Shown here in pieces: positions 11,462 to 18,093 of a stretch of DNA of 18,093 nucleotides. The DNA comes from an uncultured Verrucomicrobiota bacterium (GTDB lineage Bacteria; Verrucomicrobiota; Verrucomicrobiia; Chthoniobacterales; SZAS-18), in the NCBI GenBank assembly GCA_937873255.1, contig CALMVM010000229.1:1-18093 (forward strand), written 5' to 3'. The notes beneath the pieces were generated by a model, which searched no databases, had not been told where the DNA came from, and saw nothing but the letters and a program-made list of their open reading frames with translations. Position 1 is the first letter of the stretch. Every line of letters begins with the position of its first letter. The position numbers and the translations under genes were made by a program.

Positions 11462-12499
11462 TCAATCCAGCGGACTACGCACAGGCAACGCACCGGGACG
11501 GTTGAGCACGTGCGTGTAAATCATGGTGGTAGCCACGTCCTTGTGTCCGAGCAATTCCTGTACGGTGCGGATGTCGTAGCCATTGCCGAGCAGATGGGTG
11601 GCGAAACTGTGCCGAAACGTGTGGCAACTGGCAGCCTTCGGCACGCCGGCTCGGAGGACGGCGGCCTTCACGGCGTTCTGGAGATTCTTTTCACCGACAT
11701 GGTGTCGGCGGAACGCCCCGTCGCGCGGATCGATGGATGCTTGCGCCGCCGGAAAAACATATTGCCACGCCCACGAGTTCGCCGCGCCGGCGCTCTTGCG
11801 TTCAAACGCTCCCGGAAGAAACACGCCGCCGTGGCCCTCGTCGAGCGCCTGCCGGTGGAGGAGGTGCACCCGATCCAGATGTTGACGTAGCGTGGGCACG
11901 ACGCTGGCGGGCAGCATGGTGACCCGATCCTTGTTGCCCTTGGCCTCGCGCACCGTGATCTGGAGCCGGGTCAGGTCAAGATCCTTGATGCGCAGACGCA
12001 GGCACTCGAGGAGACGCAAGCCGGAGCCGTAGAGCAGTTGGGCCATGAGCGCGTAGTCGCCTTTCAGATGAGCGATGACGCGCCTGGCTTCGGCGGGAGT
12101 GAAGACGGTCGGCAGACGCCGTGAGCGCCGCGCCGGAACAGTGCCGGCCAGCGCGGGCAGATCGATTTCGAGCACCTGGCGGTAGAGAAAAAGCAAAGCA
12201 CTGAGCGCCTGGTTCTGGGTCGAGGCAGCCACGCCGCCGTCGACGGCCAGATGGGTCAGGAACGCCTGGACTTCCGTCGCCCCCATGCGGCGCGGATGGC
12301 GCTTGCCATGGAAACGAATGAATCGCTTGATCCAATCGAGATAAGCGTCTTCGGTGCGAAGACTGTAGTGTCGAAGTCGGAGGAGATCACGAACCGTCGC
12401 CAGAAGCTTGGGCTTGTGCGAAGATGAGTCAGGGGGTAGGAAAGATTCCGCCACGGGTAGTTGACAAATAACGTGGGTAACCTTCCGCTGAAAACGCAC
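11462..12499 (-). CDS. intI: Integron integrase IntI
   Basis: IntI is a tyrosine recombinase that joins cassettes at attI and attC by acting on the folded single-stranded attC. The product is 345 residues from a GTG at 12499; typical IntI proteins are about 320-340. Catalytic residues are visible: Arg162 ([13 protein letters not shown]), His293 and Arg296 (HTFRHS), His319 (LLGHKD) and Tyr328 (YTH). Residues about 233-255 ([18 protein letters not shown]) match the extra segment that sets IntI apart from other tyrosine recombinases. The N-terminal core-binding domain has [18 protein letters not shown]. There is no ATG near the start; a GTG at 12454 (330 residues) is equally plausible and would suit a candidate promoter at 12503-12531. 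It is transcribed away from the array. Confidence 0.95.
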
Positions 12500-12586
12500 C
12501 GGATTAGAAGAAAATAGTTTCGTCTAATAAATAGTTAGGCGCAGAAACTTCCATCTCACCGTTACACAACGAAAAAACACATCCAT
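12500..12586. promoter_or_regulatory. attI: attI-like site and intI/array promoter region
   Basis: The core GTTAGGC at 12534-12540 precedes the first cassette and has no paired GCCTAAC partner upstream, as expected of attI. The adjoining 12503-12533 stretch is strikingly AT-rich in a GC-rich region. It contains ATTAGA (12503-12508) and TCTAAT (12523-12528) as an inverted repeat. On the minus strand TTTATT (12531-12526), 17 nt, then TCTAAT (12508-12503) is a weak sigma-70-like promoter for intI. A TTGACA at 12461-12466 on the plus strand, inside intI, could be the -35 of the cassette promoter, but no good -10 follows it. Confidence 0.6.
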
Positions 12587-12994
12587 ATGAACACGAACCA
12601 CCGACAAATAGCTCTTGGCATCGCAATCACTCTTTTGGCAACCAGCCTGACTCTGGTCATCCTGGGGTCGCTGGTTCCCCGCGCGTGGGGACCGCCCCCA
12701 ACTGGCACCTGGGATTTTGCCTATTGGCTTCAGTGGGCGAAATGTTCCTTGGTTTTCACGTTGTTGCCTTGCTTGGCGGGCATTTGCACCCTTGTCTGTT
12801 CGGGATTAGCTCGCAGAGGCTCAGTGCGCATCAGCTCTGCGGTGGCATTAACCGCCTTTTTTCCGTTTTTAGCGTTGGTCGCCAGCGCACCGAGTCGCTA
12901 TGTGCTCATGCACACTGTCGCAGCCTCCCTTTATGTCGGACTCGCCGTGTTGGTCACATCCCGCTTTTTGAGGTCCCACGAACACACCGCCTAA
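12587..12994 (+). CDS. Cassette 1: four-helix membrane protein, unknown
   Basis: The 135-residue product has about four hydrophobic segments: IALGIAITLLATSLTLVILGSL (8-29), CSLVFTLLPCLAGICTLVCSG (53-73), ISSAVALTAFFPFLALVAS (82-100) and VLMHTVAASLYVGLAVLVTS (106-125). Short polar ends give it the look of a compact integral membrane protein. No family is recognised. It is the first cassette after attI and so the one most likely to be transcribed from the integron promoter. Its TAA stop is made from the GCCTAAC core of attC 1. The leader from the core to the ATG is 46 nt, longer than in most other cassettes, and AT-rich with no Shine-Dalgarno site. Confidence 0.75.
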   Translation: MNTNHRQIALGIAITLLATSLTLVILGSLVPRAWGPPPTGTWDFAYWLQWAKCSLVFTLLPCLAGICTLVCSGLARRGSVRISSAVALTAFFPFLALVASAPSRYVLMHTVAASLYVGLAVLVTSRFLRSHEHTA

Positions 12995-13090
12995 CAACGC
13001 GCTCCAGCGAACAGAGGCTGGCGGCGGGGCTGGTTCCGTGGTGGAGTCTGTCCTCGCCAGCCTCTGTCGCTGAGCTTGGAGGCGTTAGGC
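12989..13090 (+). repeat. attC 1 (102 bp)
   Basis: Bounded by GCCTAAC (12989-12995) and GTTAGGC (13084-13090). Inner arms CAGAGGCTGGCG and CGCCAGCCTCTG pair, and CGCTCCAGCG near the left core is partly complementary to CGCTGAGCTTGGAG near the right core, with unpaired bases as expected of attC. Confidence 0.92.
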
Positions 13091-13108
13091 CACCAGAAAT
13101 TTACCGCA

Positions 13109-13588
13109 ATGTACACCGCTCGCTGTCCACGCTGCACCACTGAAGGGTCCTACCCGCCCCACTACGAGGGCAAGCGCATTCAATGCGCCGTCTGCCACCA
13201 CGCTTTTACTGCGATACCGCAAGCTGCACCTCAGAAGGCTGTTCAGGCGGTGGTGCGTACAGGCATTTCCATGAAGTGCATCAAGTGCAGGCAGAAAGTG
13301 GAACTTCCTGCTTGTGACAACTGCGGAGGAACCAAATTTGAAGACGGGTGGACCGGAGACAACATCGCAGGGGCATTCTGCCTACGCTGCCATTATGGTC
13401 AGACACGTTTGGTATGCCCGAGTTGTGGTTGCAGCAACCCAGCATCAGACCTGCGAGGTTTGAGGTGGAGCAAGCGCAAGACGGAGACATTCATGGCGAA
13501 CAATCTTCTATGGGTTCTTGTTGGACCTACCGCACTCATTTTCTTTCTCCTTTGGGTGTTTAGCATGGCATTCGGTTCGCACAGATAG
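13109..13588 (+). CDS. Cassette 2: multi-zinc-ribbon protein with C-terminal membrane anchor
   Basis: The 159-residue product begins with a zinc ribbon of the MJ0042 type: CPRC, a Pro-His-Tyr-Glu-Gly-Lys spacer, then CAVCHHAF (about 6-36). Three more pairs follow, CIKC, CDNC, then CLRC and CPSC (about 64-112), so there could be two further ribbons. The C-terminus has one hydrophobic helix (LLWVLVGPTALIFFLLWVFSMAF, about 132-154), making a tail-anchored protein with a cytoplasmic Cys-rich domain. The start at 13109 is the first ATG after the cassette core, at a distance like that of the other cassettes. No exact family can be named. Its target could be a nucleic acid, a protein or metal only; the sequence does not say. 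Confidence 0.75.
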   Translation: MYTARCPRCTTEGSYPPHYEGKRIQCAVCHHAFTAIPQAAPQKAVQAVVRTGISMKCIKCRQKVELPACDNCGGTKFEDGWTGDNIAGAFCLRCHYGQTRLVCPSCGCSNPASDLRGLRWSKRKTETFMANNLLWVLVGPTALIFFLLWVFSMAFGSHR

Positions 13589-13638
13589 CGGCGTTTTTTC
13601 TAGCTCCGCCTCAGCATGTTCGGTATAGTCGCGCTCAG

Positions 13639-13741
13639 GCCTAACCACGCGCTCCAGCGAACAGAGGCTGGCGGTGGGTTTTTTCTTGCAATCCACGTCC
13701 CTCTTCGCCAGCCTCTGTCGCTGAGCTTGGAGGCGTTAGGC
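13639..13741 (+). repeat. attC 2 (103 bp)
   Basis: Bounded by GCCTAAC (13639-13645) and GTTAGGC (13735-13741), with the same ACAGAGGCTGGCG arm as attC 1. The loop is different and T-rich (GGTTTTTTCTTG). A 50-bp spacer lies between the cassette 2 stop and this site. Confidence 0.92.
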
Positions 13742-13757
13742 ATCCAGAACACGCTTT

Positions 13758-14237
13758 ATGAAGCTGAGCTTTTCCATCGTGGGTCTACTTTTAGCGTCGG
13801 TTCTCGCTCTACACGCCGAGGACGACATCATTGAGCAAGCCGCGTCTCATCCGCGTGGCGTGGAGCAGGTCCAGCAGTCAGACGGCAGCTACAAGACTTC
13901 CAAATACGGCGATCACCTACTCGCGGAAGCAGAGGATTTTCTCTCCGCGCAGCATCCCCGACCATGGACCGTTCCCAAAGTGCTTTCATGGGTTCACGAG
14001 ACAACGGACCCTGCCACGCTGACTCACTTGCTTCGTCTTCTTGCCGCCAGCCGTGACTCCAAAGCGGCGCTTTGTCTGAGCGACTATCTCCCCAGTACCT
14101 CGCTCGCTGTGCGTATGGCCGCTTATTACGGCCTGTACGATTATTTTGTGCCGCCTCGCACCGATGTTGGGGGCACCGAGGATGTCATCCGAGTCGTCAG
14201 AGAGTGGGTCGCAGCTAACAAGGACCGTCTGCAATAA
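13758..14237 (+). CDS. Cassette 3: exported protein with possible HEAT-like helices
   Basis: The 159-residue product starts with a clear signal peptide (MKLSFSIVGLLLASVLALHA, cleavage about 20). The mature part is largely helical. The stretch from about 84 to 130 (TLTHLLRLLAASRDSKAALCLSDYLPSTSLAVRMAAYYGLYDYF) reads like one or two HEAT-type helical hairpins, ending with a helix VIRVVREWVAANKDRLQ. No catalytic motif is evident. The ATG is 16 nt after the attC 2 core. It stops 13 nt before attC 3. Export to the periplasm is inferred; the function is unknown. Confidence 0.75.
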   Translation: MKLSFSIVGLLLASVLALHAEDDIIEQAASHPRGVEQVQQSDGSYKTSKYGDHLLAEAEDFLSAQHPRPWTVPKVLSWVHETTDPATLTHLLRLLAASRDSKAALCLSDYLPSTSLAVRMAAYYGLYDYFVPPRTDVGGTEDVIRVVREWVAANKDRLQ

Positions 14238-14250
14238 GCCGCCCACTGAT

Positions 14251-14310
14251 GCCTAACCACGCGCTCCAGCGAACGTCCTTCGGCCGTCGCTGAGCTTGGA
14301 GGCGTTAGGC
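14251..14310 (+). repeat. attC 3 (60 bp, short form)
   Basis: GCCTAAC (14251-14257) and GTTAGGC (14304-14310) bound a site that keeps both outer arms of its neighbours (ACGCGCTCCAGCGAAC and GTCGCTGAGCTTGGAGG) but has only a short TCCTTCGGCC loop. It is the minimal form of the array's attC family. Confidence 0.92.
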
Positions 14311-14324
14311 GACGCTCGCCTCAT

Positions 14325-14708
14325 ATGAAATTTGCGCTCCTTGCCATCCTGCTCTTCCCGCTGTCGCTCCTCGCAGCGCCATCACAGCCAGCCTCGTCGG
14401 ACGTGGCTGCCTTCGCCGTGGATGCGGAGCCGGCCGCAGACGACCCGCATTACGACGTGGACTCGCACTTCAAGGACTTCCATGTGGGGCAGGCCGACTT
14501 CGCCAAGATTTTGGACACCTACGTCCGTGTTACCGGCGAGCAATGGACCCACCGCTATAGTCATGTTGCGGGTGGCGACCGCACTGGCACCGCCACGCTT
14601 AAAGATGGCACCATTCTGAAGTGGTTCGTCAGACCGGGCGGCCTCGCCACGCTCACCTATCCTGACGGCACGATCATCTATCTGGCGGTCGAGAAGCCCT
14701 CGTGGTAG
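14325..14708 (+). CDS. Cassette 4: small exported protein, unknown
   Basis: The 127-residue product starts with a signal peptide (MKFALLAILLFPLSLLAAPS, cleavage about 18). An acidic linker (AFAVDAEPAADDPHYDVDSHFKD) follows. The rest is probably beta-rich, with a repeated DGT pattern (LKDGTILKWF, YPDGTIIYLAV) near the C-terminus. No family is recognised. The ATG is 14 nt after the attC 3 core and there is no Shine-Dalgarno site. It stops 7 nt before attC 4. Confidence 0.75.
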   Translation: MKFALLAILLFPLSLLAAPSQPASSDVAAFAVDAEPAADDPHYDVDSHFKDFHVGQADFAKILDTYVRVTGEQWTHRYSHVAGGDRTGTATLKDGTILKWFVRPGGLATLTYPDGTIIYLAVEKPSW

Positions 14709-14715
14709 CCGCATC

Positions 14716-14818
14716 GCCTAACCACGCGCTCCAGCGAACAGAGGCTGGCGGCGGGCTCTTTCTTGCATTCCACGTCTTTTTGCGCCAGCCTCTGTCGCTG
14801 AGCTTGGAGGCGTTAGGC
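14716..14818 (+). repeat. attC 4 (103 bp)
   Basis: GCCTAAC (14716-14722) to GTTAGGC (14812-14818), with the ACAGAGGCTGGCG arm. The loop (GGGCTCTTTCTTGCATTCCACG) is close to that of attC 2 (both share TTCTTGCA and TCCACGTC), pointing to a recent common source for the two. Confidence 0.92.
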
Positions 14819-14838
14819 CCGGCAGAACGATTACCGTA

Positions 14839-15222
14839 ATGAACACTTACAAATACTTCCTCCTGATCGTCACCGCGTTGTCACTGGCCTTCCCGGCACC
14901 GGCTCAGGAAGCCGGGTCCACTCATTTGTCGGGTGTTTGGATAGGCCGGGAGAGGGATGGCTCCCGTGGCGGAAAGCTGTCTTTCGGTCAGGAAGGCAGA
15001 TTAGCCTATCTGTCTGACGGTGGGTCTATGGAAGGCAGGTACGAGATCGACTCCACCAAGTCACCGAAGGTGCTGGTGTTTTACCCTGACGAGCTTCCCG
15101 GTAGGAAGATTTATGCCTTGATTCAGATCAAAAGCGACACCGAGTTTTACGTGAGCCATCTGAGTGATACCATCCCCACAGATTGGGTAGGGCAGGACAT
15201 CATCACATTCACCCGCAAGTAG
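14839..15222 (+). CDS. Cassette 5: small exported beta-rich protein
   Basis: The 127-residue product has a signal peptide (YFLLIVTALSLAFPAPAQ, cleavage about 23). The mature part has a pattern of short beta strands: LSGVWIGRERDGSRGGKLSFGQEGRLAYLSDGG, then GRYEIDSTKSPKVLVFYPDE. This resembles small secreted lipocalin-like or TIGR03067-like domains (G-x-W, a central G-x-Y-x-I-D, then a K-x-P turn), but the match is by eye. The stretch TTACCGTA before the ATG is nearly the same as TTACCGCA before the cassette 2 start. It stops 5 nt before attC 5. Confidence 0.75.
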   Translation: MNTYKYFLLIVTALSLAFPAPAQEAGSTHLSGVWIGRERDGSRGGKLSFGQEGRLAYLSDGGSMEGRYEIDSTKSPKVLVFYPDELPGRKIYALIQIKSDTEFYVSHLSDTIPTDWVGQDIITFTRK

Positions 15223-15227
15223 CCAGA

Positions 15228-15330
15228 GCCTAACCACGCGCTCCAGCGAACAGAGGCTGGCGGAAGGGCTGCTTCGGACCTTCACGCTTGACCTCGCCAG
15301 CCTCTGTCGCTGAGCTTGGAGGCGTTAGGC
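15228..15330 (+). repeat. attC 5 (103 bp)
   Basis: GCCTAAC (15228-15234) to GTTAGGC (15324-15330), with the ACAGAGGCTGGCG arm and CGCCAGCCTCTG facing it. The loop sequence is distinct from that of the other sites. Confidence 0.92.
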
Positions 15331-15344
15331 GTACAGCACGCGCC

Positions 15345-15635
15345 ATGATCCCTGAACATCTTCGCTCCACCCATGCGCTCCTCACCCGTGCGTACCCGAA
15401 CGGCGTGCCGGATGCCGACTACTTCGCCGTGCTCGCGCTCCTCTACGAGCACTTCTCCAACCGCAACTTGACCGAGGTAGTCTCTCTCACCTTTCAGCGC
15501 GATCCAGGTGTCACCTACAACGATGTGCTCAGGTGTGTCACCACCGACCGTCCCGCCCCAGAAACACTTTCCCGAGTTCAAGCGCATTTGCAGGCAGCAG
15601 GCTTCGAGGCATGGTCCCACGACGAGTACGCCTAA
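15345..15635 (+). CDS. Cassette 6: DUF3349-like protein
   Basis: The 96-residue product has no signal peptide or membrane helix. It matches the DUF3349 pattern: an initial helix (STHALLTRAYPNGVPDADYFAVLALLYEHFSNRNLTEVVSLTF), with the hallmark YPxGVPxxDYFxxLALL at about 16-31. A second half (VTYNDVLRCVTTDRPAPETLSRVQAHLQAAGFE) has the family's P-x-x-x-x-x-R-V-x-x-x-L-x-x-A-G ending. DUF3349 proteins are small helical proteins known mainly from actinobacteria such as mycobacteria, without an assigned function. The stop codon is made from the GCCTAAC core of attC 6. It is the only credible cassette product here that looks cytosolic. Confidence 0.8.
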   Translation: MIPEHLRSTHALLTRAYPNGVPDADYFAVLALLYEHFSNRNLTEVVSLTFQRDPGVTYNDVLRCVTTDRPAPETLSRVQAHLQAAGFEAWSHDEYA

Positions 15636-15732
15636 CCACGCGCTCCAGCGAACAGAGGCTGGCCGTCACGTCTTTTCTGTACTCGGCGTCATGCGTGGCC
15701 AGCCTCTGTCGCTGAGCTTGAGTCCGTTAGGC
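15630..15732 (+). repeat. attC 6 (103 bp)
   Basis: GCCTAAC (15630-15636) to GTTAGGC (15726-15732). The left arm is ACAGAGGCTGGCC, and the right flank changes from GAGCTTGGAGGC to GAGCTTGAGTCC, the form also found (with one base change) in attC 7 and attC 8. Confidence 0.92.
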
Positions 15733-15751
15733 GGTGCTACCCTTGTCCCCA

Positions 15752-16024
15752 ATGAACATCTTCGAGATGGGCGCTTTCCTCGGTATCTTTGCTGGTGCCA
15801 CCGCCGCGTACCACTTCGTTTCGCCCTACGGCGTGTTCCTCGGTGTGCTCGCTGCTGCTGTTGCTGCGGTCGCGGGTTTTTTCATCGGTCGCCTCGCCGG
15901 GCTTTTGTTCCTGCTTCCGTTCGAGGGGGCCGCGAGGCTTGGCCGGTTCCTCACCACGGGCCGCGGGCCCGAGCCGTCTCTCCCTTTGCGGCGGCGGCCA
16001 GAGCCACACGACCGCAACGCCTAA
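15752..16024 (+). CDS. Cassette 7: small two-helix membrane protein
   Basis: The 90-residue product has an N-terminal hydrophobic stretch MGAFLGIFAGATAAYHFVSP (about 6-25) and a second one VFLGVLAAAVAAVAGFFIGRLAGLLFLLPF (about 28-57). A basic, Arg-rich C-terminus follows (RLGRFLTTGRGPEPSLPLRRRPEPHDRNA). It is probably an integral inner-membrane protein with a cytoplasmic tail. The ATG at 15752 is preferred over an in-frame GTG at 15734, which would touch the attC core. The stop is part of the GCCTAAC of attC 7. No family is recognised. Confidence 0.65.
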   Translation: MNIFEMGAFLGIFAGATAAYHFVSPYGVFLGVLAAAVAAVAGFFIGRLAGLLFLLPFEGAARLGRFLTTGRGPEPSLPLRRRPEPHDRNA

Positions 16025-16111
16025 CCACGCGCTCCAGCGAACGGCGGCGGCACGTCCCTCCTTTTCGGCTCGTCTTTTCTCCCGCCGTCGCTGAGCTTGA
16101 GTTCGTTAGGC
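16019..16111 (+). repeat. attC 7 (93 bp)
   Basis: GCCTAAC (16019-16025) to GTTAGGC (16105-16111). The inner arms are a different sequence from those of attC 1-6 (AACGGCGG facing CCGCCGT), and the loop is shorter. attC 8 shares this type. Confidence 0.9.
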
Positions 16112-16446
16112 CCAGCAACCTTCCCCGACAGGTTCTTTGGTGGCGAGCCTGTTCCCGTTCCTTTTGTTGCCGGTGGCACGCCCGCTCTGAGTTCGAGCCA
16201 GCCCACGCCGGTTCCCGCTCGGGCCGTCCCGTCGTTCGTCTCCCGTTCCGGCGCATCGCCCGCTTCGTTCATGCCTTCCCGGCGGCAGCGCCCATCATTC
16301 CCCCGCCGGAGTCCACGTCCACCGTTGCGGCGGTCCAGAGGCCGCTCTGTAGGCGCGGGGCCTAACCACGCGCTCGAGCGAACGGCGGGGGCTCGCCCCT
16401 TCCATTTGTCTTGTCTTTTCTCCCGCCGTCGCTCAGCTTGAGTCCG
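16106..16446 (+). other. Cassette 8: no convincing gene
   Basis: This cassette is bounded by attC 7 and attC 8. The roughly 250 bp between the sites contain no ATG-initiated frame on the plus strand of useful length. One plus frame is open across the whole cassette and ends at the TAA of attC 8, as other cassette genes do, but it lacks ATG, GTG or TTG and its Trp/Cys/Arg-rich translation is unlike a protein. Another plus frame gives a more natural Pro/Val-rich stretch (FPDRFFGGEPVPVPFVAGGTPALSS) without a start. A minus-strand ATG at 16272 opens a frame of 83 codons that runs back into attC 7. It may be a decayed gene or an RNA- or promoter-carrying cassette. Confidence 0.5.
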
Positions 16447-16452
16447 TTAGGC
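16360..16452 (+). repeat. attC 8 (93 bp)
   Basis: GCCTAAC (16360-16366) to GTTAGGC (16446-16452). The same 93-bp type as attC 7, with AACGGCGG and CCGCCGT arms and a C-to-G change (CGCTCGAGCG) near the left core. Confidence 0.9.
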
Positions 16453-16493: not shown

Positions 16494-17042
16494 ATGAAAA
16501 TTGCTCTCCACGTAGTGCTCGCCGTTGCGTTGGCAAGTTTTGTCTGGGCAGCAGAACCCGCCGTGTTTGTGCAAGCGCGACTTCTCGGATTCTCTGCGGA
16601 CACCAAAGTGCCCGGCGACATCACCCAGCTTTACAACCAGCCCGGGGTGGACCTTCTCTCTGCCCCGCTGCTGACTACTCGTTCCGGCGAGCGTGGCAAA
16701 ATCGAGATCACCCGCAATCTTGAGTTGCCAGGCAAAGGCACCTTCCCAGTGGGTACGACCCTTTCTATTTTGCCGACATGGGAGGGCGATCACATCCGCT
16801 ACACCGCCGATTTTGACCACACTCAGTTTCTCGGCTTCGCCGAGCATTCCTCCAGCAAGTCACCGGTGTTAGACACCTGCAAAGTCATCGGGATGGATGG
16901 GGTGGCCGAGCTTGGCAAGACAGTTTTGTTTTCCTTTCCGAGCCAGACGGACAAGCAGATTGTGCATGAGGCTGGCAAGCCGGATGAGTCGAGATTTGTC
17001 GAGAAGAAGTTTGTTCTCGTTCTCACGTTCACCAGAGCCTAA
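16494..17042 (+). CDS. Cassette 9: exported protein with a secretin-like segment
   Basis: The 182-residue product has a signal peptide (MKIALHVVLAVALASFVWAA, cleavage about 20). VFVQARLLGFSADT is followed by VDLLSAPLLTTRSGERGKIEITRNLELP (about 52-80). This resembles the pattern in the C-terminal region of secretins and related verrucomicrobial proteins (L-x-S-A-P-x-x-T-x-x-G-x-x-A-x-I). No secretin beta-barrel or N-domains are present, so it is not a pore-forming secretin by itself. The ATG lies 41 nt after the attC 8 core. The TAA stop (17040-17042) belongs to the GCCTAAC core of the ninth attC, which an insertion sequence has interrupted just after this point. Confidence 0.7.
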   Translation: MKIALHVVLAVALASFVWAAEPAVFVQARLLGFSADTKVPGDITQLYNQPGVDLLSAPLLTTRSGERGKIEITRNLELPGKGTFPVGTTLSILPTWEGDHIRYTADFDHTQFLGFAEHSSSKSPVLDTCKVIGMDGVAELGKTVLFSFPSQTDKQIVHEAGKPDESRFVEKKFVLVLTFTRA

Positions 17043-17043
17043 C
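17037..17043 (+). repeat. attC 9 left core, cut off by IS insertion
   Basis: GCCTAAC is the left (R'') core of the ninth attC. The insertion sequence follows immediately. CCTAAC is repeated at 18084-18089 followed by CACC, where the attC resumes; its right half lies outside the window. Confidence 0.85.
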
Positions 17044-17992
17044 TGTTGTTGGTCAAGAGGTTGTCCGCAGTTTTGGGTAGTCGGGAGGCGGGTGGCAGGT
17101 GGCCGAGGGCGGAGTGCGGCCGATGATAGTTGTAGTCGTGCAGGAAGGCTGGCAGGAACGTCGCGCGTTGGTCGCTGGAGTCATAGGCACGGGCGTAGGC
17201 CCACTCGCGGGTCACCGTCTGAATGAAGCGTTCGGCCTTGCCGTTGGTCTGCGGGCGGTAGGGGCGGGTAAAGAGGTGCTTGAGGCCCAGTTCGCGGCAG
17301 GTCTGCGCGAAGAGCCTGGAGCGGTAGGAAGCGCCCCGGTCGGTGAGCACGCGCTGGATCAACACGCCCACTTCGGCGTAGAAGGCGACGGCTTGGCGCA
17401 AGGCGTCCAACACGCTGGGCTGCTTTTCGTCAGGATGCAGGCAGGCGAAAGCGACCCGGCTGTGGTCGTCGATGGCCACGTGCAGGCTCTCCACGCCCGC
17501 TCCAGGATTGCGGTGGGTACGCACGCCGGTGGCACGCACGCCGGGTTGAGCAAAGCGTCCCAACTTCTTGATGTCGAGGTGCAAGAGGCCACCAGGAGCC
17601 GGGTACTCGTAGCGCACCGGCGTGGGCTTGGGTGGCTCCAGGGCCGAGAGCCGTTGCAGACCATGACGGCGCAGGACGCGCGAGAGCGTCGCCATCGACA
17701 CGCCAGGAAGCACGACGCGGATCTGGGCGTAGGTGCGCCACGCCCGGCGCAGGGCCACGATGCGCGCTTCCACCGCCTCGCAGGTGCGCGTGGGCTGGCG
17801 GCGGGGAGCCGAGGAGCGGTCGGGCAGCCGCCGGGGCGAGCCGAGTTCCTGGGCGCGGTTGCGCCAGCGCCGGACGGTCTTCTCGCACACGCCAAAGCGG
17901 GTGGCGATCTGACGCAGCGAAGCGCCGGTGGCGGAGAGTTCGGCGATCATTTGCGCTCGCCGCAGCGGAGTCAATGTGGCATTAGCGTGCAT
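17039..17992 (-). CDS. IS481-like family transposase
   Basis: The 317-residue product is a DDE transposase of the IS481/IS3-related group. It has a helix-turn-helix N-terminus (about 10-47, SATGASLRQIATRFGVCEKTVRRW), then a basic linker. The rve-type catalytic core has Asp140 (LHLDIKKLG), Asp218 (VLTDRG) and Glu254 (PQTNGKAERF). The C-terminal HDYNYHRPHSALGHLPPASRL is typical of the group. The ATG at 17992 lies 91 bp inside the right end of the element. The reading frame runs through the left terminal repeat and stops at TAG (17041-17039) in the target duplication, so the stop codon is supplied by target DNA. The frame is intact, and the element may still be active. Confidence 0.93.
   Translation of the reverse strand: MHANATLTPLRRAQMIAELSATGASLRQIATRFGVCEKTVRRWRNRAQELGSPRRLPDRSSAPRRQPTRTCEAVEARIVALRRAWRTYAQIRVVLPGVSMATLSRVLRRHGLQRLSALEPPKPTPVRYEYPAPGGLLHLDIKKLGRFAQPGVRATGVRTHRNPGAGVESLHVAIDDHSRVAFACLHPDEKQPSVLDALRQAVAFYAEVGVLIQRVLTDRGASYRSRLFAQTCRELGLKHLFTRPYRPQTNGKAERFIQTVTREWAYARAYDSSDQRATFLPAFLHDYNYHRPHSALGHLPPASRLPKTADNLLTNNS
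17044..17069 (+). repeat. IS left terminal inverted repeat
   Basis: Begins TGTTGTTGGTCAAGAGG and continues TTGTCCGCA. The last 13 bases are identical to the opposite end. The sequence is also the last part of the transposase reading frame. Confidence 0.8.
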
Positions 17993-18057
17993 GGTGTCCG
18001 TACGGAATGGTGGGCGGCTGTGTGTTCATCCACCACCAGCCTGCCAAACCTCCTCCG

Positions 18058-18083
18058 TGCGGACAACCTCCTGTAACACGACA
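18058..18083 (-). repeat. IS right terminal inverted repeat
   Basis: Read inward it starts TGTCGTGTTACAGGAGG and continues TTGTCCGCA, matching the left end at 20 of 26 positions. The 6-bp CCTAAC target copy follows outside it at 18084-18089. Confidence 0.8.
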
Positions 18084-18093
18084 CCTAACCACC

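Follow-up and report, generated by a model that had tools for sequence, protein, structure and literature searches.

The window considered here, an 18,093-nucleotide stretch of DNA, is the complete contig C229 (CALMVM010000229.1, assembly GCA_937873255.1) of an uncultured Verrucomicrobiota bacterium of the Chthoniobacterales (SZAS-18), and it contains a chromosomal integron with an integrase gene (intI), an attachment site (attI) and an array of gene cassettes with their attC sites. The assembly comprises 5.02 Mb in 642 contigs and is 89.98% complete with 3.68% contamination. The integron was compared with the further attI sites and arrays of the same genome (G000), of a congener (G001) and of other relatives (the remaining G numbers); C denotes contigs and L fetched loci.

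The intI gene occupies positions 11462–12499 of the minus strand and codes for 345 amino acids (aa) when read from the first GTG. Its product gave 441.2 bits with the integron integrase family TIGR02249 (cut-off 265), and residues 32–344 were aligned to the Vibrio IntI structure 2a3v with E 9e-85, the integron-specific region included. It is a tyrosine recombinase with this region, as expected of an integron, and the completeness ascribed to it in an earlier note on this DNA was borne out; no other integrase of the genome exceeds the TIGR02249 cut-off. The attI site directly adjoins intI at 12500–12540 on the plus strand, again as in an integron, and consists of a short palindrome (ATTAGAAGAAA/TTTCGTCTAAT), a spacer and the core GTTAGGC at 12534–12540, which had already been noticed as an attI-like core. 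It is matched with 31.3 bits by the attI model R2 described below, and the same position is occupied in 19 named integrase loci.

Eight attC sites follow on the plus strand, exactly in the interval 12989–16452 where they had been predicted. Since no Rfam family matched the window at gathering thresholds, they were tested with an own covariance model, R1, built on 26 aligned attC of this genome, which it scores by construction. The sites lie at 12989–13090 (104.4 bits), 13639–13741 (115.4 bits), 14251–14310 (68.7 bits), 14716–14818 (114.9 bits), 15228–15330 (109.2 bits), 15630–15732 (110.1 bits), 16019–16111 (87.1 bits) and 16360–16452 (79.2 bits). All eight carry the R boxes GCCTAAC...GTTAGGC and show the attC architecture R''-L''-L'-R' with extrahelical bases and a foldable hairpin; two unpaired bases of the R''-side arm were located by eye (C17 and A23 of the top strand, G and T of the bottom strand), and the folding z-scores ranged from −6.0 to −2.2. 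Their description as near-identical applies to the R and L boxes; the hairpin differs between sites, and attC 3 is a short form of 60 bp. The homogeneity claimed for the attC is seen also in the whole set of 26, which align with nearly invariant R boxes and two unpaired bases on one arm. The terminal stems covary, with 44 cells changed on both sides compared to 10.5 in shuffles, a value reached by none of 500 shuffles, while two weaker measures were reached by 67 and 23 of 500.

A check that does not rely on the training set was given by 80 named integrase loci, of which 24 held a total of 69 R1 matches (E 0.1), without exception on the opposite strand to intI. The top match, of 88 bits, was in a metagenome-assembled genome (MAG) of Verrucomicrobia, and among the named relatives of IntI five of the first six, at 62–67%, were MAGs of Spartobacteria or Chthoniobacterales. 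Both results are consistent with the verrucomicrobial host supposed in the earlier note and do not prove it, because integrons move between taxa. As to the extent of the array, the eight attC were placed correctly, but intI and attI lie before the start that had been proposed and the array is longer, including a ninth attC split by an insertion sequence (IS) and continuing in contig C420.

The attC sites of this genome are not confined to the window. At least 37 of them were found by R1 on 17 contigs with E at most 8.8e-6, which is a lower bound as 150 of 4841 candidates were scored; the whole-genome model searches scored part of the candidates and their E-values are rough. The picture of a single sedentary array beside intI, as in the large superintegrons of Vibrio, could therefore not be maintained. 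At least ten array left ends could be recognised (C229, C297, C226, C580, C86, C15, C279, C584, C377 and C603), and each starts with GTTAGGC before the first cassette, except that of C377, which has GTTAGAC. By eye, the other attC contigs show long open reading frames (ORFs) like those of ordinary chromosomal genes beside short arrays. An attI block is present at seven of the ten left ends, the window included, five being recognised by pattern and those of C377 and C279 by model R2. When up to two mismatches were allowed, the pattern TTCGTCTAATANANAGTT was found exactly five times in this genome, always mismatch-free and always at a left end, one of the copies being the attI beside intI; the control patterns gave no match in this genome. 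In seven other genomes the pattern was not matched and a few control matches were obtained. Likeness among the attC of this genome does not follow the arrays, the nearest neighbour belonging to the same array in four of 23 cases with about five expected in the absence of structure.

Scattered arrays could also result from off-target activity of IntI, which would insert cassettes at unspecific secondary sites of the chromosome (attG type). Such insertions are described for other systems, and secondary sites resembling attI reportedly occur often in genomes (PMC10127599). Several terminal R' boxes of the scattered attC deviate from GTTAGGC, and three left ends show no recognised attI block, that of C584 showing, only by eye, an L-box-like TCTAAT with suitable spacing and those of C15 and C603 nothing recognised. 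The left junction of an attG insertion should be unlike attI, whereas the block of the other seven left ends lies upstream of the crossover point, where a cassette cannot bring it along. Nine attI sites of the genomes compared below have no detectable cassettes, one of them (L316) directly abutting a 546-aa ORF of the opposite strand; an attI thus need not be accompanied by cassettes. We consider insertion at attG-type sites very unlikely, and an interpretation of the attC with odd terminal R' boxes as attG insertions was dropped after the attI-like left ends had been found.

For the model R2, 53 left ends from ten genomes were collected by eye, and 19 of them, from eight genomes, were picked for alignment. 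These have in common a palindrome of the form TAGAC-arm-loop-arm-GTCTA, which is followed by a short spacer and by GTTRRRY. Covariation is seen between the arms of the palindrome, 34 cells being changed on both sides against a shuffled mean of 10.9, and this value was reached by none of 500 shuffles. When 24 left ends were folded as DNA, no more than one of 100 shuffles did as well or better for 14 of them and two shuffles did so for another two, the remaining eight being unremarkable. In the 80 named integrase loci R2 recognised 22 distinct sites with E no higher than 0.1 (31 rows if E 1 is taken as the limit), of which 19 face the cassettes and lie 20–188 bp before intI, where about 1% would be expected by chance; for this reason the block is read as attI and not as a general repeat. 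Two further sites, in the Chthoniobacterales MAG loci L217 and L224, are located on the opposite strand, 32–36 bp beyond the 3' end of intI, which suggests integrons with a turned integrase gene, and the last one is 1.5 kb from intI. The block extends beyond the Verrucomicrobia, since the matched loci include some titled Gammaproteobacteria.

The search was extended to 57 genomes, i.e. this genome and 56 relatives; at least 26 of the 57, this genome included, contain R1 attC matches. R2 gave 84 rows in 11 genomes, corresponding to 69 sites after the removal of 15 opposite-strand echoes. All 11 belong to the 26 genomes with an attC match, and none to the 31 without (Fisher 4e-5, relatedness ignored and a capped number of candidates scored). 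An attC on the same strand was found within 3 kb downstream of 54 sites, at a median distance of 419 bp; nine had none and six were near contig ends. Occupancy was thus testable for 63 sites and found for 54, opposite-strand echoes and very weak attC matches having been left out. Five of the 54 share an array with another site of this count, which leaves 49 distinct loci. The three genomes that had contributed no sequence to R2 had ten of 12 sites occupied. No site had an attC on the other strand or upstream, about 0.5 kb of upstream sequence being covered for many of them. Six of the 69 sites adjoin a full-length integrase gene (G000:C229, G008:C10, G023:C2, G031:C14, G031:C18 and G039:C10), and two of these six genes hold an internal stop.

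The position of 53 sites without an adjoining integrase gene, termed orphan sites, was examined by means of a rule on codon usage derived from the window, by which 26 could be called; for many of the other 27 the probable cause is differing codon usage or little upstream sequence. Of the 26, 24 follow a co-oriented gene at its 3' end, with a median gap of 86 bp (the call for C580 being doubtful), and the other two adjoin a gene of opposite direction. This position, together with the palindromic form, would fit common extragenic repeats, or terminators at the ends of genes, that stand by chance before cassettes and are not used by IntI. To this explanation we give the least credence of all, as R2 matches the attI position of the 19 named integrase loci, mostly titled Verrucomicrobia (or its classes) or Proteobacteria, has no match in the 31 genomes without attC matches and never has an attC on the other strand. 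The position of the blocks behind co-oriented genes suggests that the cassettes may be expressed by read-through.

Some further features of these sites were recorded. In the congener G001 (L152, L168, L169 and L327) two or three attI stand in tandem, about 135 bp apart, and in the three loci whose linker was read it contains TTGAC, so that the unit possibly bears a promoter. Several short attI forms of 39 bp occur within a few kb in L319 and L320 (G013:C18 and G013:C1), some with similar upstream sequences of 40–45 bp and with no strong attC between neighbours. Two arrays of G051 (L128 and L130) share a cassette stretch, 79% over 487 bp. Two orphan sites of G004 each follow a copy of the same gene (85% over 606 bp between the copies), and segmental duplication may therefore move some attI.

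The textbook integron has one integrase, one attI and one array. On balance we lean towards a different organisation here, in which the window is the integrase-bearing locus of a distributed integron and many attI platforms are served in trans by one IntI. There would be one IntI gene beside one attI, and further attI elsewhere, each formed by the palindrome and the GTTRRRY core and leading a short array. IntI most likely recombines attC cassettes into the scattered attI in trans, so that a common pool of cassettes would supply the arrays. Extra integron copies or copied attI segments, with attI kept and intI lost, are the probable origin of the orphan platforms, and where these stand behind co-oriented resident genes they may allow captured genes to be read through from host promoters. 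The sequences themselves show the attI sites, their resemblance to attI linked to intI, their orientation and occupancy, the covariation of the palindrome and the lack of sorting of attC by array; action in trans, the origin of the platforms and read-through are inferred, and for this genome, with its intact integrase, action in trans is the preferred interpretation.

Several observations weigh against such a system. The sequences on which R2 rests were chosen by eye (19 of 53 left ends, themselves by-eye picks), two weaker measures of palindrome covariation were reached by 46 and 76 of 500 shuffles, R2 finds nothing in 15 of the 26 attC genomes, and three of the ten left ends of this genome (C15, C584 and C603) lack the recognised block. 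This genome also holds a second, divergent IntI-like recombinase (G000:C414:24799–25773, L049), 35% identical and with 234 bits below the TIGR02249 cut-off, within whose 4-kb locus there was no attC or attI match. A further point is the state of the integrase in the relatives. In four of the 11 attI genomes (G001, G004, G013 and G051) no integrase was found at E 1e-50, G013 and G051 being 100% and 95% complete with about 20 contigs each; intI holds an internal stop in G023 and G039 and is partial in G002, and it is intact only in G000, G008, G031 and G046.

The main alternative is that the orphan arrays are the dead remains of complete integrons, that is clusters of attC lacking integron integrases (CALINs), in which intI has decayed and attI and cassettes are fossil, only the array with an intact intI being active. 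We regard this as a real possibility, well short of an even chance. Besides the missing and interrupted genes, decay is indicated by integrase fragments of 21–126 residues in seven array loci of relatives (L145, L175, L305, L313, L322, L331 and L332), by two intI-attI pairs in G031, by a decayed attC in C377 and by the integrase-free G013, which holds five of the nine sites without attC. On the other side, no integrase fragment was detected in this genome's 17 further stretches of contig that had been fetched for attC, co-oriented genes end at most 109 bp before attI at five of its six orphan sites (C580 doubtful), five sites match the attI pattern mismatch-free, and the attC are not sorted by array. 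Occupancy differed little, with 19 of 20 testable sites in genomes with an intact integrase and 23 of 29 in integrase-free genomes. A locus common to two genera (G013:C23 and G023:C1) has kept both flanks and attI with unrelated cassettes, but this turnover may be old, because both genomes are without an intact integrase. An empty counterpart of the C377 cluster was also sought and not found; apart from attC and short pieces the matches in G001, G002 and G004 were of 66–74% identity and on different contigs.

It is tempting to extend the distributed integron to a genome-wide network of this order, in which one integrase would serve up to a dozen palindromic attI behind resident genes and cassettes would join existing transcription units, the palindromic attI perhaps being recombined or regulated in the folded state, unlike known attI. 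This extension is tentative and rather unlikely.

The system shares with the sedentary chromosomal integrons of Vibrio and Xanthomonas an IntI with the integron-specific region, attI, homogeneous attC and cassettes of unknown function, and differs from them in that several attI and arrays are scattered instead of one platform standing beside intI. Like CALINs, most arrays are without an adjoining integrase, and the orphan arrays are attC clusters with no integrase nearby; Xanthomonas, too, has CALINs at several fixed places, namely seven distinct loci (PMC12444791). Degradation of integrons has been proposed as the origin of CALINs, and descriptions of attI other than those of class 1 are poor (PMC9024848). 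No description of attI in CALINs was found in the accessible portion of that literature, whereas here the attI block stands at seven of the ten left ends of this genome and 54 of the 63 testable R2 sites, in 11 genomes, are followed by attC.

With attI1 of class 1 integrons these sites have in common an L box and an R box (GTCTAAT-spacer-GTTRRRY) and a further core-like repeat upstream, which may be likened by analogy to the direct-repeat (DR) sites of attI1. In attI1, however, the upstream part is not the covarying palindrome seen here, and attI sites are reportedly non-palindromic, as the title of a cited paper has it. Recognition of attI is described as relying on its primary sequence in double-stranded form (PMC8946536). 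The attG and other secondary sites are likewise cassette-bearing places of the chromosome outside the integron, but attG is described as unlike classical att sites, while the present sites resemble attI over 40–65 bp.

Verrucomicrobiota are among the integron host phyla listed in PMC8618304, and a study modelling attC of 11 taxa leaves them out (PMC8352920). A chromosomal integron in this phylum is thus already known, and the multi-attI layout of this genome and its relatives is the new part. A paper on Treponema states that an integron has a single attI (PMC3607928), and among the open-access papers listed no title or abstract dealt with multiple attI in one chromosome, nor was a report of several attI served by one integrase found there. 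Should one integrase be served by many attI, the capture of cassettes would not be bound to one locus or promoter, arrays could be sampled in parallel and part of the filed CALINs would be working platforms. Even if the arrays are fossil, those that are led by attI and hold integrase fragments would allow the origin of CALINs to be tested by a comparison of orphan loci between strains.

The cassettes of the window, all on the plus strand, code mostly for unknown proteins, as the earlier note had stated, since a Pfam family was recognised in one of the eight tested. Cassette 1 (12587–12994, 135 aa) has no Pfam or NCBIfam match; in the same search cassettes 2 (13109–13588, 159 aa, cysteine-rich by eye), 3 (13758–14237, 159 aa), 4 (14325–14708, 127 aa), 5 (14839–15222, 127 aa) and 7 (15752–16024, 90 aa) were likewise of unknown type, and cassette 6 (15345–15635, 96 aa) belongs to DUF3349 (PF11829, 51.5 bits). 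Cassette 8 (16112–16452) has no convincing ORF in the ORF list, and cassette 9 (16494–17042, 182 aa), also unknown, gave a 19-bit NCBIfam match far under the cut-off of 750. The protein of cassette 6 recurs in the congener G001 with 82% aa identity and is the only one of the eight found in relatives, a count that covers the fetched loci and not all arrays, so that true sharing may be higher. This result and the unrelated cassettes at the locus common to two genera agree with the cassette turnover anticipated for such an array. The intI gene is adjoined by genes that look by eye like putative pyruvate dehydrogenase genes.

The ninth attC begins with its seven R'' bases at 17037–17043 (plus strand), is split by an IS481-family element at 17044–18083 of the minus strand (transposase ORF 17039–17992, NF033577, 308.6 bits) and resumes from 18084. 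The element is flanked by CCTAAC at 17038–17043 and 18084–18089, which, read by eye, would be a 6-bp target duplication inside the attC core; a second, partial match to it is present on C458 (90% over 310 bp). Through an overlap of 55 bases between the end of C229 and the start of C420 the array continues into the latter contig, where one further attC follows the split one. The end of an IS30-family element abuts the R'' of an attC in L037 (contig C639, 2424–3456), and this end recurs, next to different attC, in five further contigs, at the starts of C179, C546 and C637 and the ends of C36 and C598. A spread of attI copies directed by insertion sequences was considered and rejected, as the IS30 element may explain contig breaks and not attI copies. 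The attC at these IS30 junctions all carry CCACCCGCTC in place of CCACGCGCTC, and so does the IS481-split attC on C420.

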